A stretch of DNA of 64,000 bases from Clostridia bacterium (GTDB lineage Bacteria > Bacillota > Clostridia > Christensenellales > CAG-917), in the NCBI GenBank assembly GCA_017618055.1, contig JAFZVB010000014.1, forward strand, positions 135,663 to 199,662. The letters run 5' to 3'. Shown here in pieces: positions 12,266-28,753 of the stretch. Below the pieces are notes generated by a model that had not been told where the DNA came from, searched no databases, and worked only from the letters and a program-made list of their open reading frames with translations. Every line of letters begins with the position of its first letter. Positions within the stretch are counted from its first letter, which is position 1. Made by a program: the position numbers and the translations under genes.

Positions 12266-12799
12266 TTAAAAATCATACTTTCTTATGAAAGAGGATTTGC
12301 GATGTAATTCTGCAATGGCGGTGTGAATTTTTATATTCTCTTCTTCCAATCTTCTCACATTAATTTTGAATCTTTCTATTCTTTTTTGTAATCTACTCAA
12401 TTTATTCATATCATTTGCAATGTTTTCAAAAGCTAGCAAAAATCCTATATATTTATCATCTGGAGGAAATTCCAGCCCTAAAGACATAATTGAAACAACT
12501 ACACCGCACTTACTTAATATATACGGAAGATTATTGGGATTTACTACAAAATTTTTAAAACTATATATTTTTTCCGTCTCTTCCAACGTTAATGGATATC
12601 TACATTCTTTATCTAAGTCTTCTTCATGTTCTTCACACATATTATGATATTCCAAAGGATCCACTCCTAAAAACTCAGCAACATCTGTTTCCAACATTAC
12701 CAATTCATTTCTGACTAAATATATTTTTTCTTTGATTTCTTCTTTTATTAAATTAACTCTATTTTTATCTATTTTATTTTTCTTTGTTTTCTTTTTCAT
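12266..12799 (-). CDS. Unknown protein, third gene of an ATPase/TOPRIM-like module
   Basis: I do not recognise this family. The protein (about 177 residues from the ATG at 12799; a GTG start three codons earlier is possible) starts with a very basic segment (KKKTKKNKIDK). It looks largely helical, with a coiled-coil-like C-terminal third (LSRLQKRIERFKINVRRLEE). Its 5' end overlaps the 3' end of the TOPRIM-like gene by about 26 bases, so the two are probably translationally coupled. It may be an accessory subunit or sensor of the module. Low complexity of the N-terminus limits what can be said. Confidence 0.65.
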   Translation of the reverse strand: MKKKTKKNKIDKNRVNLIKEEIKEKIYLVRNELVMLETDVAEFLGVDPLEYHNMCEEHEEDLDKECRYPLTLEETEKIYSFKNFVVNPNNLPYILSKCGVVVSIMSLGLEFPPDDKYIGFLLAFENIANDMNKLSRLQKRIERFKINVRRLEEENIKIHTAIAELHRKSSFIRKYDF

Positions 12800-13328
12800 A
12801 TTTTTCACACCCCATTATCTTTTTAAAATAATTATTAAAAACAAGCATCAAATTACTTTTTCTTTTTGCTTGAATAGTAGCATCTAGTGATTTAATTATA
12901 GAATTATCTATTTCTTTTAAAGCACCAAACTTTTTGGCTTCTTTTACCTTATCCTTATCTTTGATTATCTTGCCTAAAAATACTTCTTCAACGTTTCTAC
13001 AAAACCAAACCAAATCATAATTATTCACAGCACAATACTGTGATATTTCTTCATTTAATGCTATATGTTTTGGATTAGTAAATATATCATCCGTATCTAT
13101 GCAATAAATAATGTGTATATTTGCAAAATTTTTGGATTTCTTTCTAATACTATCTAGAACTGTCTTGTTCTTATATTTATGTTTTCCATCCAAATAGACA
13201 TAGTCTATCTTTGTTTCATTATCTATTACATAGATTGTCTGTAAGATTTTGTTGATATAAAAAACATCTGTTTTAGATTTACTATTTGTTTCAACACATA
13301 CTAATAACAGCCTATTCGCTTGTTCCAT
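12774..13328 (-). CDS. TOPRIM/RloB-like protein next to an SMC-like ATPase
   Basis: The roughly 184-residue protein looks like a reduced TOPRIM fold. A hydrophobic strand and acidic residue (LLLVCVETNSKS) stand near the start. A later strand ends in the Asp-x-Asp motif IIYCIDTDD, and WFCRNVEEVFLG resembles the conserved third motif of RloB-type proteins. The assignment rests on motif reading only. Its start (ATG ending 13328) lies inside the 3' end of the upstream ATPase gene, 17 bases of overlap. ATPase plus TOPRIM pairs of this layout occur in OLD/Gabija, RloAB, AbiL and PARIS anti-phage systems; which one this resembles most cannot be told here. Confidence 0.6.
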   Translation of the reverse strand: MEQANRLLLVCVETNSKSKTDVFYINKILQTIYVIDNETKIDYVYLDGKHKYKNKTVLDSIRKKSKNFANIHIIYCIDTDDIFTNPKHIALNEEISQYCAVNNYDLVWFCRNVEEVFLGKIIKDKDKVKEAKKFGALKEIDNSIIKSLDATIQAKRKSNLMLVFNNYFKKIMGCEKYEKENKEK

Positions 13329-14583
13329 CTCCAAATACCCCTAAGAAACTAAATGACTCGATATTAAATGGTGAATATTTAATAACGCCCTTTCTGTATA
13401 CGCTAGATGCAGAACTGTTCCCCATTTGTACCCAAGAAGTAATCTTTGAATCTTCAGATAAAAAATCTATTGAGTATTTGCCCTTTTGTAAAACATCCAT
13501 TGGTCCAAGATTGTGAGTTGTAAATACAAATTGCCCATCAGAGTATTCTCTTATGTAGTCAACTAATTTAATGAGAACAACATCATGAATATTTGCATCA
13601 AACTCATCAATAAAAACTATTTTTCCTTCATCCGCATCACGAATGGAGGCATATAAGTCCATCATTTTTTTTATTCCGGAACTTTCATATTTTCTTGCAA
13701 TTCTTCTCCCATCTTTATAAACAAGAGTTAATGTGCATATGTATTTATCATTTTTTTCTTCCTTTACTATATCAATGTACTCTAAATCATCTTTAAAGAC
13801 TTTTAAAAATCTAGTTAAATTACCTATTCTCTTTTCAAATAGATTATAAAATGATTTAGGAACAAGATAATCATTCTTTTGGCTATCTAAATATTGTGTG
13901 TTTAAATCATCTACTTTGTTAAAGTAGTTATCATATGAATTAAACATTGCTCTTATATTTAAGGCAAAGTTCCATACAGTTGAAATTTTACTATATACTG
14001 AGCTATCTTCCTTTTTAGAAGGTCTATATGTTATGAAATTGCTAAACGCAATAGATGGAACAGACTGTGTTTTTAATAGATTCTTTGTCATATCATAGAG
14101 GTCTTTGCTTTTGCACAAAGTCAATTCCCCTTCTATAACGCTATAAATATTCTGCCATTTTGAATTATCATTTAATCTTGTTCCATGTAATTCTTTTAAT
14201 TCCTCAGAGGAAATATATGCTTTTCCATTATCATTTTTGACAACTATAGAATGCAATAATACTCTTTTCGGAATACTATCTTCACATTCGGCAAAAGTCA
14301 TTGTAATACTAAAAGTAGATGTTAATTGATTGATTAAATTTTCTAGCAAACCATTGCTGTTAGATATAGTAATAAAATCTCTTTCTAGAACAAGACTCTT
14401 ATATAAAGCAACAGCACAAACTATACCTGTTTTACCAGAACCATTTGATCCATAAATAGCTTTTACATTATTTGTTCTAACATTAATTGTCTTTGAAAGA
14501 ATTTTGTTGCTAAATTGTAATTCAATCTCTTTATCTAAATTCTTAATTCCAGACAACTTCATAGATAATAGTACAAAACTCAT
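13312..14583 (-). CDS. SMC/ABC-like AAA ATPase (AAA_15/AAA_21 type)
   Basis: The 423-residue protein has Walker A AIYGSNGSGKTG near the N-terminus, a long middle region, a signature-like YESSGIKKMMDLY, Walker B KIVFIDEFDANIH, and an H-loop FVFTTHNLGPMD. This is the RecF/OLD-like layout of anti-phage ATPases. I start it at the ATG ending at 14583, preceded by AAGGAGG; the longer frame from 14646 runs through the promoter. It heads a three-gene unit with the overlapping TOPRIM-like gene and the helical protein behind it. A well-matched promoter lies directly upstream. Confidence 0.85.
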   Translation of the reverse strand: MSFVLLSMKLSGIKNLDKEIELQFSNKILSKTINVRTNNVKAIYGSNGSGKTGIVCAVALYKSLVLERDFITISNSNGLLENLINQLTSTFSITMTFAECEDSIPKRVLLHSIVVKNDNGKAYISSEELKELHGTRLNDNSKWQNIYSVIEGELTLCKSKDLYDMTKNLLKTQSVPSIAFSNFITYRPSKKEDSSVYSKISTVWNFALNIRAMFNSYDNYFNKVDDLNTQYLDSQKNDYLVPKSFYNLFEKRIGNLTRFLKVFKDDLEYIDIVKEEKNDKYICTLTLVYKDGRRIARKYESSGIKKMMDLYASIRDADEGKIVFIDEFDANIHDVVLIKLVDYIREYSDGQFVFTTHNLGPMDVLQKGKYSIDFLSEDSKITSWVQMGNSSASSVYRKGVIKYSPFNIESFSFLGVFGDGTSE

Positions 14584-14614
14584 AATCAATATACCTCCTT
14601 TTAGGCTTAACTTT

Positions 14615-14643
14615 ATTATAGAATAATACAAATCTTTTGTAAA
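14615..14643 (-). promoter_or_regulatory. Sigma-A type promoter for the 12.3-14.6 kb module
   Basis: On the minus strand, TTTACA (14638-14643) and TATAAT (14615-14620) are separated by 17 bases, about 25 bases before a strong ribosome binding site. The module therefore has its own promoter, independent of the signal peptidase gene upstream. Confidence 0.7.
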
Positions 14644-14796
14644 CAATTATTTTACATTTTGTATAGTTAATGTACTAAAAATGGGATATATACTAAAAAT
14701 ATGCATTAAAATATTGAGTTTTTCGTATTTTTGTGTATAAAAAATCGTCTCCTCAAACCGAGAAAAGAACAATTATACCATCTTTTTTATCTATTA

Positions 14797-15831
14797 TTAT
14801 CCTTGGAATCCACCTATGTCAGACTCTTCAAAATCTGAGTAGTCTATCATATCTTCAAGTGTAGGTGCAGACTTTGGAAGTACGGATGTATCATAAGATA
14901 CTTCAACTGGTTTAAGTCTAAATGGAGGAACATATTTTACAGCTTCCTCTTTTATCTCTTGTGTTGCACCAGCTTGTGGTCCTTGCTTTAAAAGATCTTG
15001 AATTCTTTGTTGTATTCTGTGCTCTTCTTCAAGCTTTGCTTTATCTATTTCTTGCTGTTCTCTTGCGGCAGCAGCTGCCCTTTGTGCTTCATCTAGTTTG
15101 AACATTTCTTCTTCTATGTTCTCTAGTTCTTTTTCATTATCTCCTGGCAACTGATTTCCGTTTAATTTCTCAATGTAATCCTCTGCAATCTTCTTTCTTT
15201 GATCTTCTGAAAGTACAATTCCTTCTTCTTTAACATCTCTCATCCTATCCATTACTATTCCAGCTATGAATAATCCAAAGATTATTAGAAGTGGGAGAAC
15301 AATACATACAAAGTATCCAGCGAAACCAGAAAGCATAAATGTAAATACGTGCATTGTACGTACATACTTTGCTTTTATATTCTTAGGATATAAAACCCAG
15401 TTATCTTGTTCAACAGTTGGATTATCTCCTTTTGTATAGAAACCAATTTTGTTTCCAAGAGCATCTGTATTATAACCAACTATTCTATGTGTAATGTTTT
15501 GTCCAGCAAGTGGACCAGAAGGTGCAACGAAGGTTATAACATCACCATAATTAAGTTCGTTTACATCTGTAACAGCCTTACACATAATAACTTCTTTAGG
15601 CTTGATTGTTGGGTCCATGGAATCTGTTGCAACATAGAAGAAATTGTATCCTAATACTTGTACGTCTTTACCTTGTCTCTTCTGAAGAACAACAACTACA
15701 ACAGCAGCAACAACAATTAAGAAAACCAATACCTCAACGATGGTTGAAATAATATCAAAGATTTTTCTTCCTTTGGATTTTGGTCTTTGATGTTTCTTAG
15801 GTTTAATGCTTTGCTTTGTTAAATCTTCCAT
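14797..15831 (-). CDS. ER-type (SipW-like) signal peptidase I with long tail
   Basis: A membrane signal peptidase of the Ser-His (ER/SipW) type. The nucleophile is Ser71 in YVATDSMDPTIKP. His115 in NITHRIVGY replaces the lysine of ordinary Lep-type enzymes, and GDVITF and YTKGDNP complete the family boxes. Membrane segments lie at about 25-49 and 160-190. Unlike usual SipW (about 190 residues) the protein is 344 long, with a tail of about 145 residues rich in Glu, Gln and Ala. The start of the tail (LSEDQRKKIAEDYIEKL) resembles the tail of the other signal peptidase of this locus. It is 56 bases downstream of the DUF2357 gene. Confidence 0.88.
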   Translation of the reverse strand: MEDLTKQSIKPKKHQRPKSKGRKIFDIISTIVEVLVFLIVVAAVVVVVLQKRQGKDVQVLGYNFFYVATDSMDPTIKPKEVIMCKAVTDVNELNYGDVITFVAPSGPLAGQNITHRIVGYNTDALGNKIGFYTKGDNPTVEQDNWVLYPKNIKAKYVRTMHVFTFMLSGFAGYFVCIVLPLLIIFGLFIAGIVMDRMRDVKEEGIVLSEDQRKKIAEDYIEKLNGNQLPGDNEKELENIEEEMFKLDEAQRAAAAAREQQEIDKAKLEEEHRIQQRIQDLLKQGPQAGATQEIKEEAVKYVPPFRLKPVEVSYDTSVLPKSAPTLEDMIDYSDFEESDIGGFQG

Positions 15832-15850
15832 AAACTCAATTTATTATATA

Positions 15851-15879
15851 AATTGAAACCCCCAATTTTTAGGAGTTTG
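15851..15879 (-). terminator. Weak hairpin after the DUF2357 gene
   Basis: AAACTCC and GGGGTTT can pair (one G-T) on the minus strand, followed by a loose T-rich stretch. It may partly reduce transcription into the second signal peptidase gene. Confidence 0.35.
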
Positions 15880-15887
15880 CAATTATA

Positions 15888-18863
15888 TTATTCGTCATCA
15901 TTTTCGTCTTTATTTTCTATTCCAAAATTGCCTAAAGCGTTTTGGATAGAGCCAAAGTCTACTGGCAAATCTCCTACACTAACCTTCGTTTCATCTATTG
16001 GTTTAAAGGTCTTTTGCCTACCAGATTTCTTTGAATATTTTTGATTTATTGTTGTTGGAGAAAGTGCATTAGGATCTCTCTTTGTTGTTGGTTTTGCTTC
16101 ATGTGTTACAACAACTGGAACTACTGCAGGTTGAACTTGTTCTTCTACAGATTTTTCCTCTTTCTTCTTTCTCTCTTTCTTTGGTTTTTCTGGTTTAATT
16201 TCTACAGATTGACCGTATGGATCTTGTACTGGTTCATTGTATCCAAGTTTGCCAAGATTTGCTCTTTGAGCACCAAATGTGTTACCAAGTAAGTCTCTTG
16301 TACTTAATCTATCTACAGGTGTATCTCCTACTCCAACTTTGCTTTCGTCTACAGGTTTATACACGTGTGTTTGCTTTGCAATTAAAGATGCTTGTTGTGC
16401 TTTCTTTCCTCTTTGTGTGGTGATAGCCCAAGGATCTTTTTTAACTTCTGGCTTTGGTTGTTCAACCTTTGGTTGAATTGTGCCCATTAGAGGAATATTA
16501 TCTTCATAATTATCCTCAGTATCCTCTTCTCCTAAACCTCTATATCTAGGAGCATTTGCATCTGTATGAAGTGTGAATCCGAGACCTGTATCGTCTAGTC
16601 CAGCAAAGCCTAAATTATACTTAACTGGAGCATCTCCAACTTGAGATTTCTTGATATCTACAGGCTTGAATGTCTTAATTGTCTTAACAGAAGGAACACT
16701 CTTTTCTACCTTCTTAACACCTGGTCTTTCTGCCCATGGGTTGAAGTCTTCTGGAGATGGTGTAAGTGTTGGAACTTGAATTGGTTCTGGTTTCTCTTCT
16801 TCTTTTACAACTGGAACTACAGGAGCCATTCTCTTGAAACCTGTCATGGAGAATCCATATGCAGAACCTGTTAAATCTCCCTTTAGACCATAGTCTACAG
16901 GTGCATTACCAACTCCAACCTTTCTTTCATCCACAGGCCTGAAGTTTCTCATTGCTCTCTTTGGCTTGGAGGTTGGTTTTTCTATTTCTTCTGCAGCCTT
17001 CTTTGCCTTTTCTATAGCAAGTTCTTCTTCTGTCTTTGGTGTTTCTTCTACAACTTCTTCTTGAACTTCTTCTGGTTTATCTGCAACTACATTAATAGGT
17101 GCTTCTTGAACTGGTGTTTCCTCTACTTCTGGGACTTCAAATTCGTTAATACCTTCAACCTCACCAGTTGTCATGTTAAGACGTCCTAAGAGAATTAATC
17201 TCTTAGCTCTTTCCATTTCGTCTATTTCTCTACGAATTCTATCTAAATCTTTGTCTTCAAAGTCTAGTTTTTCGTTCTTATCAAAGAATAATTCTGGATG
17301 GTTTTCTGCAAATGAACCTGTTCCGAATAGAGACCTTGCTGCTTGGTCTTGGTTGAACTTATCTCTAAGAGATGGCATGCCAAATAGTTCGGCTTCTCTG
17401 TCTCTTTGTTCTTTGAGAGCATTTGCTCTTCTGTCCAAGTCTTCTTGTCTCTTTCTTCTGAGTTCTTCTTGTCTTTCTTTTTCAAGTTCTTCTTGTTTAA
17501 TTGCCCTATATGAGATAAGACAGCGGTCTATTGCGTCTTTAATACGGTTAATTTCTGTTTGTCTTAATCTATCTTCTTCTGGGCGTTTATATAACTTACG
17601 AACATCAAAGAGGTTTTGGTCAAACTTCTCAGCATCTGGTTCTTCATCCATATCTGGAAGATCTTTAGGGGGAGCTGGAGTTTCTAGGTCTCTATCTACT
17701 TCCTTTTCTTTTTCAACCTCTTTTTCTACTTCTTCTTGTTCTTTTTCCTTCTCTTCTGGAGGTTTTTCGGCCTCAGTTGGTTCTTCTTTTACTTCCTCTT
17801 CCTTCTCTGCCTCATTCTTTAGTTCATCCTCATCTGCCTTTTGAGAATATTCGTCATGTTGAACATTGTCTGCTTTGAAGTCCATTTCACCAAGTTTGAT
17901 GAAATCTGCAAAAGCAGCATCTTCCATATCAAAGTCTGTTTCGTGCTCGTCATACATACTCTCAAAGAGCATTGTATTAAGAGTTACCATATCCTTTAAT
18001 TGTTCAACATTTTCTGAGGTGAGGTCTAAATCTGTAATATCATCACTAGCATTAAAACCAGCAGTAACGTTATAAGTTTCAATGAACTGCCAAAGAACTA
18101 GAGCCTTTTTGAAGTTAGGTTCCTTTAAGATAACGTTTGTTCTTGTAATAGGAGGTCTAACTGGAGCAGAGTTTCTCATTTGCTTTGCAAATGGTGATGA
18201 CAAGAAGTCTGTAATAATACGGTCCATTCTTGCAATACGTTCAATCTTCTCCATAGTCTCTGGGTCCAATCTCATGACTTCATCAAAGCCGAGTTGAGCC
18301 ATATATTGAGAACGATATGTTACCTTTTTCTTTGGGAGTGAGAATTTAGATTCAGCATCTAATTCAAGAACGTCTTGTGTAGCACTAGCCTTTTTAATTT
18401 TATCATAACGCATAGTTACGAAGTCTTTAACCTTCAAAAGTAGCGTATAGATAAATCTATTTTCGTAAATTTCGAAAGATTCTTCCTTTGTAATATTCAA
18501 GATTTTAGAAGGAATAACCGTACCATCTTCTTCAACCTTTGAAATCATGTTAGTATGCTGAGCAAGGTGTTTAACAGATTCTGTTGAGATTGAACGAGCA
18601 AGAGATACGTCCACGATATCTTCTTCTTGAACGATGAACTTACGAGGATTTCTAACGATATGGTCTAGATTTGGAAGAATACCTTCAATGGTATCAATCC
18701 AGTCTACTGAAATTTCTTGAATTAACTTTTTTCTTTGGAGTTTGAATGAATTGGCACCGTTTTTAACCCTATCACGGTACTGTTCATAGAACTGTTCTCC
18801 TGAAAGAACAGAAACTATCTTCTTTGCATACTGCATATACTGTTCACGAGTTATACCAGCCAC
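15888..18863 (-). CDS. DUF2357 (McrC-side) protein with long repeat-bearing tail
   Basis: The 991-residue protein begins with a DUF2357-like domain (about 1-330). Diagnostic stretches are NPRKFIVQEEDIVDVSLARS, ESVKHLAQHT, GTVIPSKIL and ESFEIYENRFIYTLL. DUF2357 proteins normally pair with McrB-like ATPases and end in a PD-(D/E)xK nuclease; here I see no nuclease motif. Instead come a Glu/Lys/Pro-rich region (about 350-420), a charged coiled-coil stretch (about 450-600), and four copies of a motif like F-K-P-V-D-x-x-K-V-G-V-G-x-x-P-V near residues 640, 730, 833 and 951. No membrane segment is seen. The start is GTG with GGAGA at good spacing. The partner ATPase is 27 bases upstream. Confidence 0.75.
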   Translation of the reverse strand: MAGITREQYMQYAKKIVSVLSGEQFYEQYRDRVKNGANSFKLQRKKLIQEISVDWIDTIEGILPNLDHIVRNPRKFIVQEEDIVDVSLARSISTESVKHLAQHTNMISKVEEDGTVIPSKILNITKEESFEIYENRFIYTLLLKVKDFVTMRYDKIKKASATQDVLELDAESKFSLPKKKVTYRSQYMAQLGFDEVMRLDPETMEKIERIARMDRIITDFLSSPFAKQMRNSAPVRPPITRTNVILKEPNFKKALVLWQFIETYNVTAGFNASDDITDLDLTSENVEQLKDMVTLNTMLFESMYDEHETDFDMEDAAFADFIKLGEMDFKADNVQHDEYSQKADEDELKNEAEKEEEVKEEPTEAEKPPEEKEKEQEEVEKEVEKEKEVDRDLETPAPPKDLPDMDEEPDAEKFDQNLFDVRKLYKRPEEDRLRQTEINRIKDAIDRCLISYRAIKQEELEKERQEELRRKRQEDLDRRANALKEQRDREAELFGMPSLRDKFNQDQAARSLFGTGSFAENHPELFFDKNEKLDFEDKDLDRIRREIDEMERAKRLILLGRLNMTTGEVEGINEFEVPEVEETPVQEAPINVVADKPEEVQEEVVEETPKTEEELAIEKAKKAAEEIEKPTSKPKRAMRNFRPVDERKVGVGNAPVDYGLKGDLTGSAYGFSMTGFKRMAPVVPVVKEEEKPEPIQVPTLTPSPEDFNPWAERPGVKKVEKSVPSVKTIKTFKPVDIKKSQVGDAPVKYNLGFAGLDDTGLGFTLHTDANAPRYRGLGEEDTEDNYEDNIPLMGTIQPKVEQPKPEVKKDPWAITTQRGKKAQQASLIAKQTHVYKPVDESKVGVGDTPVDRLSTRDLLGNTFGAQRANLGKLGYNEPVQDPYGQSVEIKPEKPKKERKKKEEKSVEEQVQPAVVPVVVTHEAKPTTKRDPNALSPTTINQKYSKKSGRQKTFKPIDETKVSVGDLPVDFGSIQNALGNFGIENKDENDDE

Positions 18864-18890
18864 AAGTCTTTCTCCAAATTCTAATATATA

Positions 18891-20411
18891 TTAGAACAAC
18901 TTCTTTAATCTTTGTAAGTATTCTTTACATTCACCCATAGAATCTTCACCGAAGAGTTCTGAGAGGTATAAGCACAAACCATCAATCTCATCACGAATGT
19001 AGGACAAGTTCAATGATTCAAACTTTCTAAGAATCTTATTACAGAGAACGTAGTCTAATCCATCTAATTCTGTACCACCACAACCAATGTATGAAGGAAC
19101 GAATTCTTTTAACTGTTTTACAATACGGTTACCAAATGCCAAACGGAAGTGTTTAATAACGTAGTCATCCAAAGTATTAATCTTATCTAGATTTTCTTGG
19201 GAAACTTTGTTCTTCTCTTTTGCTTCGTTAAACAAATCCTCTAAGTGTGTTGCACTCATCCAAATTGTATCTTGGTATGGAGCTTCAAAAGGAACACCTT
19301 TAGAGTTAATGTTAATTGGCATAGCTCTGTCGTAAACCTTATCTGAAATAGCGAATGTGGAGTCATCGTTATTAGCTGTTCCAATAAACCACATGTTTTG
19401 AGGTAATTGGAAACGGCCTTTTTCAATATGTTTAGGGTCATTAGGCCATCCAGATGGAACCAAGTCTACGATCCACTCATCTCTTGATGGCATTTCTAGA
19501 ATAGAAAGCATTTCAGCGAAGTAGTACTCAACTCTAGCGATGTTCATCTCGTCCAAGATTGTGAGGTAAATGTTTTTATTCCATGTAGCCTCATACATCT
19601 TCTTCAAAACTTCGGTTTCGTTGAAACGCTTGGTGAATTCGTTGAAGTATCCGAAAAGCTCTGTTCTATCACGCCATGATGGCTGAACAGATGCAATAGT
19701 TGCTGGGTTATTAAAGAAGATACCCATAGCGTGTGGAAGGGACGTTTTACCTGTACCAGAAATACCTTGTAAGATTAGAAGACGAGTTGTACTGAATCCA
19801 GCAATGAACAATCTAATAATTCTTGGTTCGTAGTAAAGACGCATCTTTGAACATGCGAAATTTCTGAACATATCACAAAGTTGTTCAAGTGTAATGGAAT
19901 CATCATACATTGGATCTACGTAATCTGCATAAAGTTGGTCAATTTCTGTAAGTTTGTAGAAACGAGATTCACCAGCAGCCTTAGCTTCTTCTTCACCAGG
20001 TTGACCTGAACCCTCTTCACCTTCTTCACCGTTATAGTTACCAATATCTGAAACTTTCATACCGAGAATTCTATCTTTCTCAGCAGACATCTTTATAATT
20101 TGCTTCTTTAAGTTAGCACATTCCTCTACTAAATCCTGAGGAAGTACAACATTTCTATTAATTCTAAGTAGTTTTCTTATTCCGAACACAGCCAGAACAA
20201 CGAGAGCAATGATAGCGACAACAATAAGTATAACGAAAATCATACCTACAGCCTTTTCGCCTGTGGACATTCCACCAAATAAGGAGAATGCTTCCACATA
20301 ACCTTCGTTGTAGAACATATGTATAAAGCCTCTAAAGATTGCACCTAATCCGTTGTCATAGAATGCTCCAAGGAAAGCTCTTAGAAATGTAAATACATTT
20401 TGAATATTCAT
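18891..20411 (-). CDS. Membrane-anchored McrB-like AAA+ ATPase
   Basis: A 506-residue protein with an N-terminal part containing one strong membrane segment (about 55-78) and an acidic Gly/Glu linker (about 126-148), then an AAA+ domain of the McrB/MoxR branch. Walker A is GISGTGKT (216-223), Walker B is ILDEMN (285-290), and sensor 1 lies in WFIGTANNDD with an arginine in SDKVYDRAMP. The stretch PSWRDRTELFGYFN is typical of McrB-like partners of DUF2357 proteins. A membrane anchor is not expected for a restriction motor. There is no DNA-recognition domain. It lies between signal peptidase and DUF2357 genes, so a role at the membrane is inferred. Confidence 0.85.
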   Translation of the reverse strand: MNIQNVFTFLRAFLGAFYDNGLGAIFRGFIHMFYNEGYVEAFSLFGGMSTGEKAVGMIFVILIVVAIIALVVLAVFGIRKLLRINRNVVLPQDLVEECANLKKQIIKMSAEKDRILGMKVSDIGNYNGEEGEEGSGQPGEEEAKAAGESRFYKLTEIDQLYADYVDPMYDDSITLEQLCDMFRNFACSKMRLYYEPRIIRLFIAGFSTTRLLILQGISGTGKTSLPHAMGIFFNNPATIASVQPSWRDRTELFGYFNEFTKRFNETEVLKKMYEATWNKNIYLTILDEMNIARVEYYFAEMLSILEMPSRDEWIVDLVPSGWPNDPKHIEKGRFQLPQNMWFIGTANNDDSTFAISDKVYDRAMPININSKGVPFEAPYQDTIWMSATHLEDLFNEAKEKNKVSQENLDKINTLDDYVIKHFRLAFGNRIVKQLKEFVPSYIGCGGTELDGLDYVLCNKILRKFESLNLSYIRDEIDGLCLYLSELFGEDSMGECKEYLQRLKKLF

Positions 20412-20539
20412 AATCTTACTATTTTCTTTTTAATCTACGAGTTTTTTCACGTCTATATGTGAAAATACTGTGTTTAGACAAAATTATCTTTGTACTGTGA
20501 GCTGTGAGTTTACCAAAAAAGAAAGAAGAATAAGGTTAA

Positions 20540-21457
20540 TTATTCCTCGTCCTTTTTATCTGCATCTTCTGCCACTTCTTCTTGAACTTCTTCTGATGAT
20601 TCTTCTGTTGGTGTTTCAGCGTCTGTAGGCTCTTCATTAGCCTCTTCTACTGATTCCTCGGCAGATTCTTCAACAGGAGCTTGTTGTTGTTCTGGAAGTG
20701 AAATGCCTTGAGATGCAAGATATTCTTGAGCGAGTCTTGCCTTTTCTTCTTCTGATAAATCATTAACTGCAACTTCTTGAGCTTTTGCAACCTTGTTCTT
20801 AACAAGTGAGTAGATAAGAACAGCAGCATATGCGACAAAGAGTAAGATTAATGGGAGTACGATAACTAGGAAGTATCTAATACTCTTTCCTGAAGCTGTC
20901 ATGTGTTCTTCATCATTCAACCAGTTGTTAATCTTACCTACACCCTTAAGTATCTTACCATAGGATTCAGAATTCCATTTGCCATCTGCACCCTTAACAC
21001 CTGGTGTTCCCCAAGTTGCGATAATGTTAGATTGTCCAACTAATCTTGTATCTGCGCTTGCTTCATGGTCACCTTGAGTTCTATATGAGTGTGTTCCGTT
21101 AGCACCATCTATAACTTCGATAATTCTGTGGGTGTTAACATAGGAAGTTTGTCCCATAATAACTCTGAATGTAATAACTTGACCAACTTGAAGTACTGTA
21201 GATCCATCATATTGTTTACAAACAATCATATCACCTACTTCAAAGGTACCTGACATAGAATCTGTTTTAACAGCAAGGAAATAATTCTTTCCAAGATGTG
21301 GTAGATTATCACTATTCGTTGATTGTGAAATTGACACTACTGATAAAACTAATGCGAATAAAATAATCAAAACACAAACCACATTCAAAACCCAATTCAA
21401 TGCAGTTTGTACTTTCTTTTGTTGAGGAGTTAACTCCTTTTTTGCTTTGCTAGGCAT
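20540..21457 (-). CDS. ER-type (SipW-like) signal peptidase I, first gene of the unit
   Basis: The 305-residue protein is a Ser-His signal peptidase. Ser67 lies in AVKTDSMSGTFEVGDM and His110 in YVNTHRIIEV, with VGQVITF and YRTQGDHE boxes. Membrane segments are at about 19-43 and 194-219. The last 85 residues are a cytoplasmic-looking tail starting NDLSEEEKARLAQEYLASQG and ending in a Glu-rich stretch. In Bacillus this enzyme class processes TasA-like matrix proteins. AAGGGG precedes the ATG. It is the first gene after a perfect promoter and a roughly 210-base leader; the AAA+ gene follows after 128 bases. Confidence 0.9.
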   Translation of the reverse strand: MPSKAKKELTPQQKKVQTALNWVLNVVCVLIILFALVLSVVSISQSTNSDNLPHLGKNYFLAVKTDSMSGTFEVGDMIVCKQYDGSTVLQVGQVITFRVIMGQTSYVNTHRIIEVIDGANGTHSYRTQGDHEASADTRLVGQSNIIATWGTPGVKGADGKWNSESYGKILKGVGKINNWLNDEEHMTASGKSIRYFLVIVLPLILLFVAYAAVLIYSLVKNKVAKAQEVAVNDLSEEEKARLAQEYLASQGISLPEQQQAPVEESAEESVEEANEEPTDAETPTEESSEEVQEEVAEDADKKDEE

Positions 21458-21668
21458 AAAAATACCCCTTAAATAAAACCTCTCACCATAAAACCCTAGA
21501 CTTCTTGTCCTTTTAATGCTTATGCACTTGTGTTTATATACATGAGCTCATATGCAGGCTGAACGTGCCATACCTAATGTCCTTTTAACGTAATAATACG
21601 CTTCACACGATCAACTTTGTTGTTCCGTTGGGCATATAACCCAACAGTATAGACTTATAACTATACTT
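21458..21668 (-). promoter_or_regulatory. Structured 5' leader of the signal peptidase/AAA+/DUF2357 unit
   Basis: The predicted transcript starts near 21668, immediately at two abutting hairpins: AGTATAG with CTATACT (21646-21667) and GTTGGG with CCCAAC (21627-21645). An 11-base repeat TTAAAAGGACA occurs twice (21578-21588 and 21506-21516). Two tiny reading frames overlap by ATGA: MARSACI (21548-21571) and MSSCI (21534-21551), on a 10-base palindrome ATGAGCTCAT. I match it to no known riboswitch. The layout suggests leader control, but this is inference. Confidence 0.4.
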
Positions 21669-21674
21669 ATTGAA

Positions 21675-21703
21675 ATTATAATTAATAAATATACGGGTGT
21701 CAA
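21675..21703 (-). promoter_or_regulatory. Perfect consensus sigma-A promoter
   Basis: TTGACA (21698-21703), 17 bases, TATAAT (21675-21680) on the minus strand, an exact match to both consensus boxes at ideal spacing. It drives the signal peptidase/AAA+/DUF2357/signal peptidase unit and is the best-matched promoter seen in the window. Confidence 0.85.
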
Positions 21704-21915: not shown

Positions 21916-22698
21916 TTATCTTTTAGGACAATTATTAAAGGTCAACTTTGTGTCTTTTATAACACTTTTCCAAAAATTAGTAGAAAAATAATCCAATATG
22001 AACTCAGGGAAAGCACTTAATACAAAAACAGTCTCGGGTAAATATGATGAATATTCCTGATCGAAAATCGTACTGGGAGTAATATGTTTTCTGTAATATG
22101 TTTCTATAAAATCATCTAACTCAAACAAACACTTAATTCTCATTTGGAAAATGTTTAAAATATTTTTCCATTTATTTTTGTCATATTTTTTTGTTTCAGC
22201 TGTTTTTGGATTTGCTCCAGTTAGGGTTTTATAATCTTTAATGTTCTTTCTGTCAACTATACAACCAGTAATTGAATCACAATAACCTTCTTTATAATCT
22301 CTTAATGCCTCAACCATTGGATAACTTAAATACATTTTCCCATTCTCTGTTTCATTATTAAAAAAATCCAATAATTCTCTAATTACTTGAATGGGGTTTG
22401 TTAACTTCTTTAAGTTTGCTTGTTGTATATCCAAATCAAAGAACATATATGTTTCAGAAACTTGTTGTCTTGTAACTCCATCCAATTTCTTGGCATTATC
22501 TGGGTCTTCTCTTAATAATTCAATTAAATCCAAATTCTCATCTTTTTTTAGTATTTGATATAACATATAGATATTTAGTTTTGCAGAAAGAGATATTATA
22601 CGAAAATCCGCATCCTTAAAGAAGATATTTTGCACATTCCCAAAATATCCCAAATCTCTTTCTCCTTCACAAATAAATATCTTTATATCCTTAGCCAC
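21916..22698 (-). CDS. TOPRIM-like protein paired with an SMC-like ATPase
   Basis: A 260-residue protein of a family I cannot name firmly. The N-terminal strand and acidic motif IKIFICEGERDLGYFG and the later strand with Asp-x-Asp, TYMFFDLDIQQ, look like the two metal sites of a TOPRIM nuclease, as in RloB, DUF4435/AriB or AbiL second subunits. MYLSYPMVEALRDY follows at the place of the third conserved block of RloB-like proteins. The gene overlaps the upstream ATPase gene by eight bases. It is not closely similar to the other TOPRIM-like protein at 12774-13328, so the two modules seem independent. Function as an abortive-infection effector is inference. Confidence 0.65.
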   Translation of the reverse strand: MAKDIKIFICEGERDLGYFGNVQNIFFKDADFRIISLSAKLNIYMLYQILKKDENLDLIELLREDPDNAKKLDGVTRQQVSETYMFFDLDIQQANLKKLTNPIQVIRELLDFFNNETENGKMYLSYPMVEALRDYKEGYCDSITGCIVDRKNIKDYKTLTGANPKTAETKKYDKNKWKNILNIFQMRIKCLFELDDFIETYYRKHITPSTIFDQEYSSYLPETVFVLSAFPEFILDYFSTNFWKSVIKDTKLTFNNCPKR

Positions 22699-23788
22699 TG
22701 AAACATCCTGCCTTGTACATTTTTTGTAAATTATGAGCTTTGCGTAGTTCTTTATCCGTAAGATTTACTAGAGCATTAATTTTGTTGTTTTCAATATGGA
22801 AATAACAATCTGGTCTAAGAATATCATTGGATAATAAGTCCGTATTATGTGTTGTTAATAAAACTTGAGCCTTTAATAAACTTACTGTCTTCAGTATGTC
22901 TTGAGATAATTCAAAGTGATAAAAAGCATCAAATTCATCCATAAATACAAAAGAGGTTTCTTGCATACGAATATACCAGTAATAGAACAATGTCATACTC
23001 ATAGTCCCAGTTGAAGCAATTCTAGAAAACTCTCCCATTTTATTCCCAAACTTAACAACCAATATTTTTTGCCCCAAATTATCTACAACATCTAAGTCAT
23101 AATTGATGTCTTGTTGTTTAAGGAAAATTTCAAATTCTTTAACTTTATTCTTTTTTATAATACCTTGTGTAATATCTTCTATTCCAGAAACAAGTCCTTG
23201 ATATCTATTTTGCTGTAGAGAGTAGAATAAGAGCATATGATTTACAAAATAAGAAAAATCATTAAATACTTTATTCTGTTCATTGTCTACCAACAAGGAA
23301 CTATTCATAATGTATTTAACTCTAGAAATGTTTGAGTCCGTTTTTAATTTCAATGATTCCGCTCCTTCTAGTGACACATATCCATTATTTGAATCATAGT
23401 TATAATTAATGACTTCGTTTCCATCTATGATGACTATTTCATTAGTTAAAGTTTGAGCATCTTTTTTTGAATATTTATATATTAGCTCATGACCGGAAAA
23501 ACTAAAATAGTATTCAAAATCTGCAGTAGGTTTATTTGAACTAAGATTAAGATAATATAAATATTTGTCCAACATCTTCTCATTATCTGTCAAATGAATA
23601 ACTATATCAAAAATAGCCAAACCTAGATTTGATTTTCCAGAACCATTAATCCCATAAAATACACCTGTTTTTATACAATTGTCTTTTATTAGATGTTCAT
23701 TGAATTCAAAATGAAGAGGTTTAGATAAATCCAATTCAGTTCTTGTTTTAAAGTTTTTAAAATTAGTTACTATGAATTTCTTAAGCAT
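22691..23788 (-). CDS. SMC/ABC-like AAA ATPase (AAA_15/AAA_21 type)
   Basis: The 365-residue protein begins MLKKFIVTNFKNFK, the typical start of RloA/AbiL-type ATPases. It shows Walker A VFYGINGSGKSN, a signature region IASTGTMSMTLFYYW, Walker B SFVFMDEFDAFYH and H-loop VLLTTHNTDLLSND. It is shorter than the 13312-14583 ATPase and differs in sequence. GGAG lies nine bases before the ATG, and a good promoter lies 30 bases further up. With the overlapping TOPRIM-like gene it forms a two-gene candidate defence module. Confidence 0.85.
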   Translation of the reverse strand: MLKKFIVTNFKNFKTRTELDLSKPLHFEFNEHLIKDNCIKTGVFYGINGSGKSNLGLAIFDIVIHLTDNEKMLDKYLYYLNLSSNKPTADFEYYFSFSGHELIYKYSKKDAQTLTNEIVIIDGNEVINYNYDSNNGYVSLEGAESLKLKTDSNISRVKYIMNSSLLVDNEQNKVFNDFSYFVNHMLLFYSLQQNRYQGLVSGIEDITQGIIKKNKVKEFEIFLKQQDINYDLDVVDNLGQKILVVKFGNKMGEFSRIASTGTMSMTLFYYWYIRMQETSFVFMDEFDAFYHFELSQDILKTVSLLKAQVLLTTHNTDLLSNDILRPDCYFHIENNKINALVNLTDKELRKAHNLQKMYKAGCFSG

Positions 23789-24192: not shown

Positions 24193-25278
24193 CTATTGGC
24201 CACCAACTTTAGTATTGGTAATTGAGAATAAAATTCCACATTCTGAACCAAGTGCTGAGTTAATACAGTCTGTATCTGTTCCATCATAGAAGATATAGAT
24301 TTCTACTTGGTGAACTGTATCTGCAGCCATTGCTGTATTAGTTGTTCCAAATGGAATATCGATTTCTTTCCATCCAGCATTTAGTACTGTTGTATCTGTG
24401 TATGTTGCAACATTATAATGAGCATTTAATGCAGCACCAACTGTACTTGCTTGTGAAATATTTGTCTTTGTTGTGTTATATGTGATAGCAGTATTTTCAC
24501 CATATGTGGTATAAATTTGACCACCAGCAAATGAACCACCATCAATACTATAATAACAATATAAAGCAGCTTCTACACCAATAGCATTCTTGTTTGTGCC
24601 TGGATTTACAAACAATGAAACGGTGATTGTATCAATTGTTGCAATAGATGGAGAAACACCGAGAACAAAGTGTAAGTAGTCTGTATTTTGAATTGCAGCT
24701 TCAACTGATGTTGCATCATAAACTGCTGAAGAAGAACCACTTGCCTTAATAATTGTTTCACCAGAAGATGTTCCTGGAGTGAACTTTCCTGCTGTACCAG
24801 CTGTTCCAGAAGCAGTGTATGTTGTTGTCTCAGAAGTATATGTTGATTGGTTTTCTGATGTAATTGCGATATATGCATCATTAACTCTTACATAATGTCC
24901 TGGTGTAACTGATGCTGTTTGGTCTGCTGTATAAGATAATGTACTTGGTGTACCATAACCTGTTGCTTTTGCAATAGATGCTAAAGATAATCCTGTATTA
25001 AGTTCAAATCCCATTCCTGGATCACCTGTCCATGGTGTTGCTGAATCAGCCCAAGTTAAAGAACCAGAAACAAATGCATCTTGGTTTGCGCCTGCTGCAT
25101 ATGTGTTATCTGCTTTCATACCAACTTTAACGTCAGCACCAGCTGCTGCTTTAACAGTAATGCTTTCAATTGTTGTTGCTGCTGTGGTTGTGAACCATGC
25201 ATAAGTTGCTGTAGTAAGTGATACTGCTAATACAAGTACCATTACTATTGTTGCTATAATCAAACCTTTCTTTTTCAT
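24193..25278 (-). CDS. SipW-cognate secreted protein, CalY/TasA-like
   Basis: The 361-residue protein has the SipW-type signal sequence: MKKKG, a hydrophobic core (IIATIVMVLVLAVSL), then TTATYAWFTTTA, the T-Y-A-W-F motif of TasA/CalY-like substrates. The mature part is very rich in Thr, Ala, Ser and Gly, poor in Lys and Arg, with beta-strand-like pieces and two cysteines near the end (TDCINSALGSECG). It is a candidate substrate of the two ER-type signal peptidases encoded 3-10 kb away, and may be a fibre or matrix protein (inference). AAGGAG precedes the ATG. The 5' end lies in an inverted repeat. Confidence 0.85.
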   Translation of the reverse strand: MKKKGLIIATIVMVLVLAVSLTTATYAWFTTTAATTIESITVKAAAGADVKVGMKADNTYAAGANQDAFVSGSLTWADSATPWTGDPGMGFELNTGLSLASIAKATGYGTPSTLSYTADQTASVTPGHYVRVNDAYIAITSENQSTYTSETTTYTASGTAGTAGKFTPGTSSGETIIKASGSSSAVYDATSVEAAIQNTDYLHFVLGVSPSIATIDTITVSLFVNPGTNKNAIGVEAALYCYYSIDGGSFAGGQIYTTYGENTAITYNTTKTNISQASTVGAALNAHYNVATYTDTTVLNAGWKEIDIPFGTTNTAMAADTVHQVEIYIFYDGTDTDCINSALGSECGILFSITNTKVGGQ

Positions 25279-25687: not shown

Positions 25688-26860
25688 TTAAAGTACTTGG
25701 AAGTCTATTCCAAGGGATACATAACTATCAAGAGCATCATCATTGCAATCAAAGTCACTTCCCTCTATCCATACAACGACAATGAATCTAACGACTTCTT
25801 CTGGAACCAAATATGATTGATATTCAAATACTGTGTCCTCACTTGCAAATGGAATTGTATCTTTAAAACCATTCATCACATCGAATTCATTCCATTCGTA
25901 ATCTAAATCAAACTTTTTGTTTGCATCATCAACCATCTTATTTGGATATGCCCACTTCTCTGGAACACTTGTTGGCTTGTTTCCATCTTCATCTGTCATA
26001 TTAAATAATTGGTATTGCATATCAATTACTGCTTCATTAGATGTAGCTGTTGCATATACACCAGAATGTTTTGTATCTTCTATGTGATCTGCTATGTTTC
26101 CGAATTCTTCTATCCACATTACTCTAACTGCATCTACTATTCCATAATTCCTTGTTTGTCCACTAGCTTCAACTTTCATTCTAATATTGAAGTCAATGTT
26201 TTCAGTCATAATACTAGATGTATTTTTAAGCATAAATGAGAATGCAATGTAGAGATCATCCTTTGTAGAAAGCATACCATTTACAGATTCATCTTGAGAT
26301 GTTGAAGAAATCATTGCAACTAGTTCTTCATAATTTGGAACAGTTTGCTCAGATAACTCATTTTTCTCATATTCAGGATTATAAGATATGTTCCACATAT
26401 TATCTGGACCATCAACATTTAGTTTAGGAGCCCAAATATCACCATCACTAGAAAGTGAGATTGTTCTTTCATCTTTTGATGTTGCTGTGATACGAATGGA
26501 GTTCTCTTCTATGAACAATAACATGACATAAACAACAGATGTTAAGAGCAAAGATAAAACAAGGATAAGAGCAAGAACTCTTGTAACCTTCTTTCTAGTT
26601 AACTCTCTCTTTACTCTCTTGTTTGCAATAATGGAATCTTCCCATTCCTTTTGCGCTTTCTCTTTTGCACTTAGGGATTCTCTCTCTGCTTTTGCATTCT
26701 CTTTGGCACTTTTCTTGTCTTTCTTACCCTTCTTTTCCTCTTTTTCTGCATTCTCTGCATTATTAGATTGAGCAACTTCTTCGTTTTGCTCTGCTGGATT
26801 TGAAGTCTCTTGAGACTCAACTGCCTCGTTTTGAGTTACATCCCTCTCTTCATCTGCCAT
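25688..26860 (-). CDS. Single-pass membrane protein with exported beta-rich domain, unknown
   Basis: I do not recognise the family. The 390-residue protein has a cytoplasmic N-terminal part (1-90) rich in Glu, Lys, Ala and Asn, one membrane segment (about 94-116), and an exported domain starting ITATSKDERTISLSSDGDIW. The exported part looks beta-rich and ends with EVVRFIVVVWIEGSDFDCND. That ending recalls the IYIFYDGTDTDCIN end of the adjacent SipW-cognate protein, so the two may share a fold. The membrane segment lacks the SipW cleavage motif. It is 24 bases after the degenerate EAL gene, with AAGGAG before its ATG, so the two are an operon. Confidence 0.7.
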   Translation of the reverse strand: MADEERDVTQNEAVESQETSNPAEQNEEVAQSNNAENAEKEEKKGKKDKKSAKENAKAERESLSAKEKAQKEWEDSIIANKRVKRELTRKKVTRVLALILVLSLLLTSVVYVMLLFIEENSIRITATSKDERTISLSSDGDIWAPKLNVDGPDNMWNISYNPEYEKNELSEQTVPNYEELVAMISSTSQDESVNGMLSTKDDLYIAFSFMLKNTSSIMTENIDFNIRMKVEASGQTRNYGIVDAVRVMWIEEFGNIADHIEDTKHSGVYATATSNEAVIDMQYQLFNMTDEDGNKPTSVPEKWAYPNKMVDDANKKFDLDYEWNEFDVMNGFKDTIPFASEDTVFEYQSYLVPEEVVRFIVVVWIEGSDFDCNDDALDSYVSLGIDFQVL

Positions 26861-26884: not shown

Positions 26885-28753
26885 TTAGAAGTTATGCCAT
26901 GTTCCATCTTCGTCAAAATAGCCGTATGGAACCCATTTGTTTATTCTTTCGTCAAAGTATCCGTTATCTACCCACTCGCCATCTTCGTTTTGATATGAAT
27001 AGTCTATCCATCTACCTTGCTCATCATAGTATCCGTTATATACTGTACCATCTGCTGCAACCCATTGACCTTTCTCGTTGTAATGTCCTTCTTCAAGTTC
27101 ATCAAACTCTTCATAGTCTACCCAGTTGCCATTCTCGTCCCAGTAACCATTATAAATGTTTCCATTTTCATCAACCCATTGATGTTTCTCATTATAATGA
27201 CCTTTTGGTTCGTCATCCTCTTCTGGTACTTGTTGTTCTTCTTTAACTTCCTCTTGCTTTGGTTCTTCTTGTGGAACTTCAGTGGTAGGAGTTTCTTGTG
27301 TTTCTTCTTTTATTTCGTCAACAGGCTCTTCAACATCATTTTCTTCTTCTTGCTTTTGTGCTTCAAGCGCTGCTTTCTTTGCTTTTATTCTTTCTTCTTT
27401 CTCTTTGGCTTCTTGTGCTTCCCTTGCTGCATCTTCTTCGTCTGCTTTCTTTTCATCAAAAACTGGCTTTACAGCTTTGCCTTCTCCAAGAACCTTTTCG
27501 CTTTCGTATGAAGATACTTCTTCTTCCTCTGCTTCAGAAATAATAACTTCTGCTTCTTTGGATTTGAACTTAGGTGCTTGTCTGCCAAGATTTAACTTCA
27601 TTCCGAAGCTTCCACTACCTCCAAATGGATCTCCTCCAAATAAAGATGTCTCTTTTGCATATGCATTTGCTGCTTCTTCGTAAAGTTTTCTTTCTCTTCT
27701 TGTATCTTTATCTTCTTTTTGTACATCAAAAAGTGCTGCTTTCTCTGCTCTCTTTGCTGCTCTTATCTCTTCTGCTCTCTTTGCTGCTTCCTTTTGCTTC
27801 TCAAGTCTTACTTGGTATGGAGATTTAGTCATCTCTGGCTTTGGAGCTTCAGGTGCAATAACTTTTCCAGCGGCTGCATCTTCTTTTGCTTTCTTAATTG
27901 CTTCCATTCTTGCTTTCTCTTTGGCAATCTCTTCTTTTCTTCTTGCTTCCGCTTTCTCTGCTTCTATCTTTCTAAGATATTCTTCCTTTTGCTTTGCACT
28001 TAGTGCAGGAAGAGATAATATCTCTCTAGTTACCCATCTTGTTAATTTTGCAACTGCTTTTCCAGTATAAAGGTTTACTCCCTCTTTTCTGAATCTTGTC
28101 ATTTGGCTTGGAGTATCTACTCCTTCCATAATGAGACTCATCTTGTTTGCACTGCAATATTTAACAAGCATGCTAAGTAATCTCTTCTTTTGAGGTGTTG
28201 CATCAAAATAAATTGCTTCGCATCTTAGGTAATCAAAATTGTATCTTGCAAATAAGTCTAATTCGTTAAACTCTTCACCAAATCCGTAAACACATGTTTT
28301 AAAGCCCATTCTTCTTAATCTGTCATATCTAACTTTTGCTTCTTTTGGAAGAGCTAATAATGTGTTTGCATTGAAAGAGATTATAAGGTTTGCTTTTTTG
28401 TATCCTTTTTCTCTTAATGTTGCTTGGAGTATTTCTAAGTCTCTATCTGATCCCAAGAATCTTGTTGTAATTGGGAGATTGTATTGTACATCTGGAATGT
28501 AGAAGTTTTCTCTCATTACTTGGTTGTAATTTCTGAGTTCGTCTAAAGCAATTAGATTGAGTTCGTTAATACGTACGGAATTTTCTGCAATAAAGAAATA
28601 GTTCATAACATTCATTCTTCCAACATATCTGTCATTGAGAATTTGGAATGCATCTACAAACTGAACTTTCTTGGATTTAACATTAACAACTGCACGATAG
28701 AAAAAGTCTATAGGCTTATATCCTTTTCTCATTGCATATGTTGTTGAAATCAT
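26885..28753 (-). CDS. Degenerate EAL-domain protein with aromatic/glycine repeat tail
   Basis: Residues about 1-250 align in outline with an EAL (c-di-GMP phosphodiesterase) domain. Sequence around YRAVVNVKSKKVQFVDAFQI stands where family members have the EAL motif, LIMEGVDTPSQM matches the EGVET box, and LYTGKAVAKL the terminal GxxF/Y-x-x-P box. The catalytic acids are mostly replaced: EAL reads DAF and the DDFG box reads YGFGEE. It is therefore probably a binding or structural domain, not an enzyme. A long charged Glu/Lys/Ala coiled-coil region follows (about 250-510). The last 100 residues hold repeats such as GHYNEKGQWV and NGYWDENGNWVDY. No membrane segment or signal peptide is visible. 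Confidence 0.7.
   Translation of the reverse strand: MISTTYAMRKGYKPIDFFYRAVVNVKSKKVQFVDAFQILNDRYVGRMNVMNYFFIAENSVRINELNLIALDELRNYNQVMRENFYIPDVQYNLPITTRFLGSDRDLEILQATLREKGYKKANLIISFNANTLLALPKEAKVRYDRLRRMGFKTCVYGFGEEFNELDLFARYNFDYLRCEAIYFDATPQKKRLLSMLVKYCSANKMSLIMEGVDTPSQMTRFRKEGVNLYTGKAVAKLTRWVTREILSLPALSAKQKEEYLRKIEAEKAEARRKEEIAKEKARMEAIKKAKEDAAAGKVIAPEAPKPEMTKSPYQVRLEKQKEAAKRAEEIRAAKRAEKAALFDVQKEDKDTRRERKLYEEAANAYAKETSLFGGDPFGGSGSFGMKLNLGRQAPKFKSKEAEVIISEAEEEEVSSYESEKVLGEGKAVKPVFDEKKADEEDAAREAQEAKEKEERIKAKKAALEAQKQEEENDVEEPVDEIKEETQETPTTEVPQEEPKQEEVKEEQQVPEEDDEPKGHYNEKHQWVDENGNIYNGYWDENGNWVDYEEFDELEEGHYNEKGQWVAADGTVYNGYYDEQGRWIDYSYQNEDGEWVDNGYFDERINKWVPYGYFDEDGTWHNF

Follow-up and report, generated by a model that had tools for sequence, protein, structure and literature searches.

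A probable CoCoPALM-type locus of Clostridia joins a membrane-anchored McrB-like GTPase to SipW-type signal peptidases and predicted fibre proteins

A McrB-like AAA+ protein and a DUF2357 protein are encoded between two signal peptidase genes in the window, the whole 64,000-nucleotide stretch of clostridial DNA analysed here, and the same gene set recurs with secreted proteins in other Clostridia. The reading that we favour, and hold to be somewhat better than an even prospect, is that the AAA+/DUF2357 pair, encoded by a locus of the CoCoPALM type, is a motor that runs on GTP and is dedicated to a surface fibre of the TasA/camelysin kind. That the pair shares its locus with peptidases and secreted proteins, and does so repeatedly in Clostridia, suggests a role in building or sorting the fibre. 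The gene set, the motifs, the predicted topology, the conservation and the homology between anchored and secreted proteins are all read from sequence; the hexamer, the use of GTP, the formation of a fibre and the nature of the powered step are what we infer. If the reading is right, defence machinery has been recruited for another cellular task, with a restriction motor becoming a motor for secretion or fibre assembly, and SipW-type fibres would have an energy source.

Table 1. Promoter match and genes of the locus, in window coordinates.
Feature	Position	Strand	Supporting detail
Degenerate EAL-domain protein with charged tail	26885..28753	-	PF00563 2.2e-19; active-site residues lost
Membrane-anchored, probably uncleaved paralogue of the secreted protein	25688..26860	-	TM 99-117; predicted base or nucleator
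SipW-type secreted protein, predicted fibre subunit	24193..25278	-	Signal end TATYAWFT after hydrophobic stretch
Promoter match TTGACA-17-TATAAT, exact, sigma-70-type	21675..21703	-	Consensus match only
S26 signal peptidase A, ER/SipW-type, 305 aa	20540..21457	-	TIGR02228 4.4e-15, above cut-off; TM 23-41 and 197-215
McrB-like AAA+ GTPase, NxD branch, membrane-anchored, 506 aa	18891..20411	-	TM 58-76, then short heptad segment; AAA domain about 190-500
DUF2357 (McrC N-terminal-like) protein without nuclease, 991 aa	15888..18863	-	PF09823 7.9e-8, above cut-off; long charged tail
S26 signal peptidase B, ER/SipW-type, 344 aa	14797..15831	-	TIGR02228 2e-17, above cut-off; TM 31-49 and 175-193

The core runs head to tail from 21457 to 14797 on the minus strand, in the order peptidase A, AAA+ protein, DUF2357 protein and peptidase B, and lies behind an exact consensus promoter match, just as the first-pass annotation of this DNA had described it. 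The gaps between successive genes are 128, 27 and 56 bp. The exact TTGACA-17-TATAAT arrangement occurs once in the 64-kb window, against 0.05 copies expected, and the ATG of peptidase A is found approximately 220 bp downstream of it. A weak hairpin (15878-15856) separates the DUF2357 and peptidase B genes, so transcription of the core as a single message is, from the sequence, plausible only. The first-pass annotation had the extent of the core right and missed its upstream continuation (28753-24193), where the genes for the EAL-like protein, the anchored paralogue and the secreted protein all point in the same direction as the core. Across the genome there are exactly two matches to TIGR02228 and one to DUF2357, all of them at this locus.

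The AAA+ protein is related to McrB both by hhalign (97%, E 4.7e-11) and by profile search against the PDB (entry 6hz4, 8.7e-9), and its Walker A and Walker B motifs are intact. The NxxD of McrB is replaced in it by N347-x-D349, after which come D/E and an invariant Ser. Among 26 relatives with identities down to 23%, D349 never varies and N347 is present in at least 90%; in the 15 closest relatives all of these positions are invariant. Judged by these motifs the protein belongs to the NxD branch of the McrB GTPases; its earlier description as a McrBC-derived ATPase was sound as to McrB kinship, and the label is corrected here to the McrB GTPase branch. The anchoring in the membrane that had also been proposed was borne out, in the form of a single transmembrane helix that is conserved in 16 relatives and is followed by positive charge, an arrangement from which the AAA domain should face the cytoplasm. 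A heptad-like segment, LxxExxNLKxQIIKLxxEKDRIL, is conserved in the N-terminal part of the protein.

The DUF2357 protein owes its label to the Pfam match, which spans residues 58-160; the conserved columns of the family end near residue 260, beyond which the protein is charged, partly proline-rich and variable, with residues 300-500 highly charged. No PD-(D/E)xK nuclease region is visible in the family alignments, which have no conservation past residue 260, in agreement with the lack of a visible nuclease noticed in the window protein; nor were nuclease genes found among the locus-map neighbours or the top flank families. Comparison with McrC by structure search, by PDB profile and by hhalign to the single-sequence E. 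coli protein returned nothing, and the structure model of the DUF2357 protein is a moderate one (pTM 0.51). Its tail carries four copies of KPVDExKVGVGDxPVD, at residues 644, 735, 838 and 956 (window 15888-17000). Outside the window protein only the nearest relatives (L032, L034 and L070) retain the repeat, which is a possible docking motif.

The two peptidases, each with a pair of transmembrane segments, score above the TIGR02228 cut-off (63.5 and 55.9 bits against 51.85) and keep Ser71 and His115, the ER/SipW-type pair that is invariant in 22 aligned S26 peptidases. Their scores against the SipW equivalog NF046067 (81.5 and 62.2 bits) are below its curated cut-off of 190. The likely substrates are encoded upstream. 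The secreted and anchored families are homologous (hhalign 97.9%, E 5e-13) and have a C-terminal WxEGxD signature in common; the TxAWF signal end was found in 231 secreted proteins, and the anchored paralogue is without a motif of this type. The window's secreted protein is not matched by TIGR04088, the model of the SipW-dependent signal peptide, which matches 2 of 14 family members (best E 0.028), and no secreted protein matched the camelysin/TasA family in Pfam. A model of the anchored paralogue's ectodomain (pLDDT 77, pTM 0.77) has as its best structural match the TasA fibre 8aur (Z 6.3, rmsd 3.3, 133 aligned), level with unrelated Ig folds, and lower matches to the Pyrobaculum bundling pilin 7ueg (Z 5.7) and to FimA (Z 5.6 to 5.3); the score being modest and the Ig folds tied with it, the likeness to TasA is a lead and not proof. 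Foldseek gave no significant match for this model, and profile searching of the PDB found no match to the anchored paralogue.

Two further observations concern the same genome. The C-terminus of the EAL protein (window 26885-27100) has aromatic/glycine repeats that resemble the EAGR box of mycoplasmas, at 23.1 bits under the Pfam cut-off of 27. A second array of SipW-type proteins (L166, C1:292000-308000) is accompanied by a 2651-aa protein and has no peptidase of its own; as the genome's only two ER-type S26 enzymes sit at the window locus, they might serve this array in trans.

The constancy of the gene set was assessed in 118 loci around relatives of the AAA gene, taken both from the order to which the window genome belongs and from Clostridia records that cover uncultured Clostridia, Christensenellaceae and Ruminococcus, and labelled with iterated HMMs. 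The counts that follow refer to the 68 that contain close AAA relatives with 4 kb on either side, and they are not independent, since some loci may represent one genome twice (L037 and L079, for example). DUF2357 adjoins AAA in all 68; an S26 peptidase is no more than five genes away in 65, a member of the anchored/secreted family is present in 63, a SipW-type secreted protein with the TxAWF signal end in 59 and the EAL protein in 41. A frequent order runs from EAL through the anchored paralogue, one or more secreted proteins, a peptidase, AAA and DUF2357 to more secreted proteins, another peptidase and a large protein. Among 200 genomes of the order, ER-type S26 enzymes occur in 27 of the 28 that have a close AAA relative compared with 74 of the 172 others (Fisher p 3e-8, kinship ignored). 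The first-pass annotation had looked to repeated co-occurrence with ER-type peptidases for support and to their absence beside homologues for its undoing; the loci and the genomes alike show co-occurrence. Its wider proposal, that the pair has been reused for the biogenesis of SipW-type proteins, is supported by these counts and by the missing nuclease region, and fails in holding the composition to be undescribed, a point taken up below.

The close AAA family is present in a minority of genomes of the wider class. In uncultured Clostridia, many of them from animal guts, the gene set is widely distributed, with at least 586 confirmed matches. Elsewhere in the phylum the matches are 1e-42 or weaker and probably represent other McrB families. 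Carriage of the AAA gene on plasmids was considered and rejected, there being no plasmid record that covers 80% of it. Some of the large proteins at the ends of loci are of adhesin type, with InlB-type repeats and a CBM26 starch-binding module or with an M26 N-terminal region. In a Ruminococcaceae locus (L112, 11743-15591) the InlB-type repeats and CBM26 are combined with a hydrophobic N-terminus ending STYSW, and through the starch-binding module of this one locus the gene set may bear on how such bacteria hold food particles. A sister arrangement, AAA-DUF2357-AAA, is found in L047 and L050 and also in L053-L055, L065 and L066. No S26 gene lies alongside this branch (L047, L050, L055), so the link between motor and signal peptidases does not hold throughout. 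Both AAA copies in L047 and L050 look identical in the GTPase core and unlike at the N-terminus, a pattern that gene conversion could leave, and large surface-type proteins follow the arrangement, with MBG/YDG in L047 and a transglutaminase in L065.

These observations suggest a scheme in which the N-terminal helix of a hexameric NxD McrB-like GTPase would fix it to the cytoplasmic side of the membrane, where the GTPase and its nuclease-free DUF2357 partner would make up a motor. Fibre subunits would be exported with SipW-type signal peptides and cut by the two flanking ER-type peptidases, the uncleaved paralogue would remain in the membrane to serve as base or as nucleator, and some species may add a large adhesin. 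Hydrolysis of GTP would most likely drive a step at the membrane in which subunits are released, ordered or loaded, and the motor would engage cytoplasmic tails, either those of the anchored subunit or those of the peptidases.

The main rival to this scheme is membrane quality control, in which the AAA+ protein would act as a dislocase and extract from the membrane those SipW-type precursors that stay uncleaved or misfold, with the DUF2357 protein as adaptor and the fibre as the motor's client and not its product. A cytoplasmic AAA domain on a single transmembrane helix, as predicted here, would suit that task, as would the strict link to signal peptidases, but the conserved set includes no protease gene and in McrBC the stalk of McrC plugs the pore of the ring (PMC6624300, PMC7680126), an architecture ill-suited to the threading of substrates. 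We consider quality control unlikely. The McrC stalk has also been proposed to turn in the McrB pore (PMC6624300, PMC7680126), and by analogy the motor could be a membrane-fixed rotary GTPase whose DUF2357 stalk turns in the pore and, geared to the tails of anchored subunits, drives the growth of a TasA-type fibre from inside; we regard so specific a machine as decidedly unlikely.

We also weighed a type IV-like restriction or abortive system, whose membrane form would sense or block phages and whose effectors would be the peptidases and secreted proteins. It would accord with the McrBC ancestry and with the PADLOC profile PDC-M26A, which matches the window AAA+ protein at 1.1e-35 and all 15 aligned family members. 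Two candidate defence cassettes are, moreover, right beside the locus: three genes (AbiL-like ATPase, uncharacterised protein, PDC-S05) between peptidase B and topA (12266-14646), and the pair PDC-M12A/B (21916-23788; 3e-138, 4e-63) between the secreted protein and peptidase A genes. The former is absent from L070, where the AAA protein is 98% identical (DNA 86%) and the flanks are only 11 bp apart, so either the window genome has gained it or L070 has lost it; L032-L034 have comM-like and dprA genes at its position. The set has no nuclease, and when 92 flanking proteins were compared with PADLOC and Pfam they proved to be mostly housekeeping with few defence-like matches, the ShosA matches being probably dprA. 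With sampled flanks of this kind we rejected a defence island as the setting, and homologues lying mostly in such islands with an intact nuclease, the pattern that the first reading of the DNA had set against itself, are not what was found. A defence role in general seems to us very improbable. Least credible of all is a scaffold for envelope or division, with a transmembrane/coiled-coil N-terminus like that of FtsB/FtsL, envelope shaping under the EAL-like protein and the secreted proteins placed in the wall: FtsL/DivIC matches to the AAA+ N-terminus in some members, the EAL neighbour in 41 of the 68 loci and a GGDEF protein elsewhere in the window point that way, but the matches are all weak and below cut-offs, and 27 loci have no EAL gene, while hardly any lacks S26.

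A GTP-driven motor for a surface fibre, the reading that we prefer, can be set beside four kinds of known system. McrBC of E. coli (PMC6624300, PMC7680126) likewise joins an AAA+ GTPase domain to a DUF2357-type partner, but has a DNA-binding domain, NxxD and a nuclease where the window pair has a membrane anchor, NxD and no nuclease. CoCoNuT (PMC11090510) and the PADLOC candidate PDC-M26 have in common with the window locus an NxD-branch GTPase and the PDC-M26A profile match; HEPN or other nucleases, RNA-binding domains and a conserved defence context were not found for the window locus. In TasA/TapA/SipW of Bacillus and SipW-BsaA of Clostridium perfringens, according to the passages drawn on here (PMC9674648, PMC10151520, PMC7395162), a SipW-type peptidase cleaves secreted beta-sandwich subunits and a minor subunit starts or anchors the fibre, as we propose for the window locus. 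In TasA fibres the subunits join by donor-strand exchange and TapA is the starter; assembly is described with TapA and SipW and, in those passages of PMC9674648 and PMC10151520, with no motor. Those systems have one peptidase and the window locus has two, and its subunits diverge too far to be recognised by the SipW and TasA family models.

The closest counterpart is CoCoPALM, a name that Bell et al. 2024 (PMC11090510) gave in one paragraph to McrB GTPases of the NxD type that have a membrane/coiled-coil N-terminus and signal peptidases linked to them, so the initial claim that no system of this composition had been described was mistaken; literature searches for later work on CoCoPALM brought up the naming paper and its preprint alone. 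The window locus resembles it in the NxD McrB-like GTPase, the N-terminal transmembrane segment, the DUF2357 partner, the linked signal peptidases and the predicted pilus role, and on its sequence features is probably of CoCoPALM type. Of the FtsB homology the window family gives only the weak FtsL/DivIC matches, of the N-terminal coiled coil the heptad-like segment, and of the coiled coil in the McrC homologue the highly charged residues 300-500. PMC11090510 names no substrates, anchored subunit or EAL protein. What is new here, as far as gene content and homology indicate, is which proteins are the likely substrates and how constant the gene set is, and a system named without substrates is thereby supplied with candidates that can be tested.
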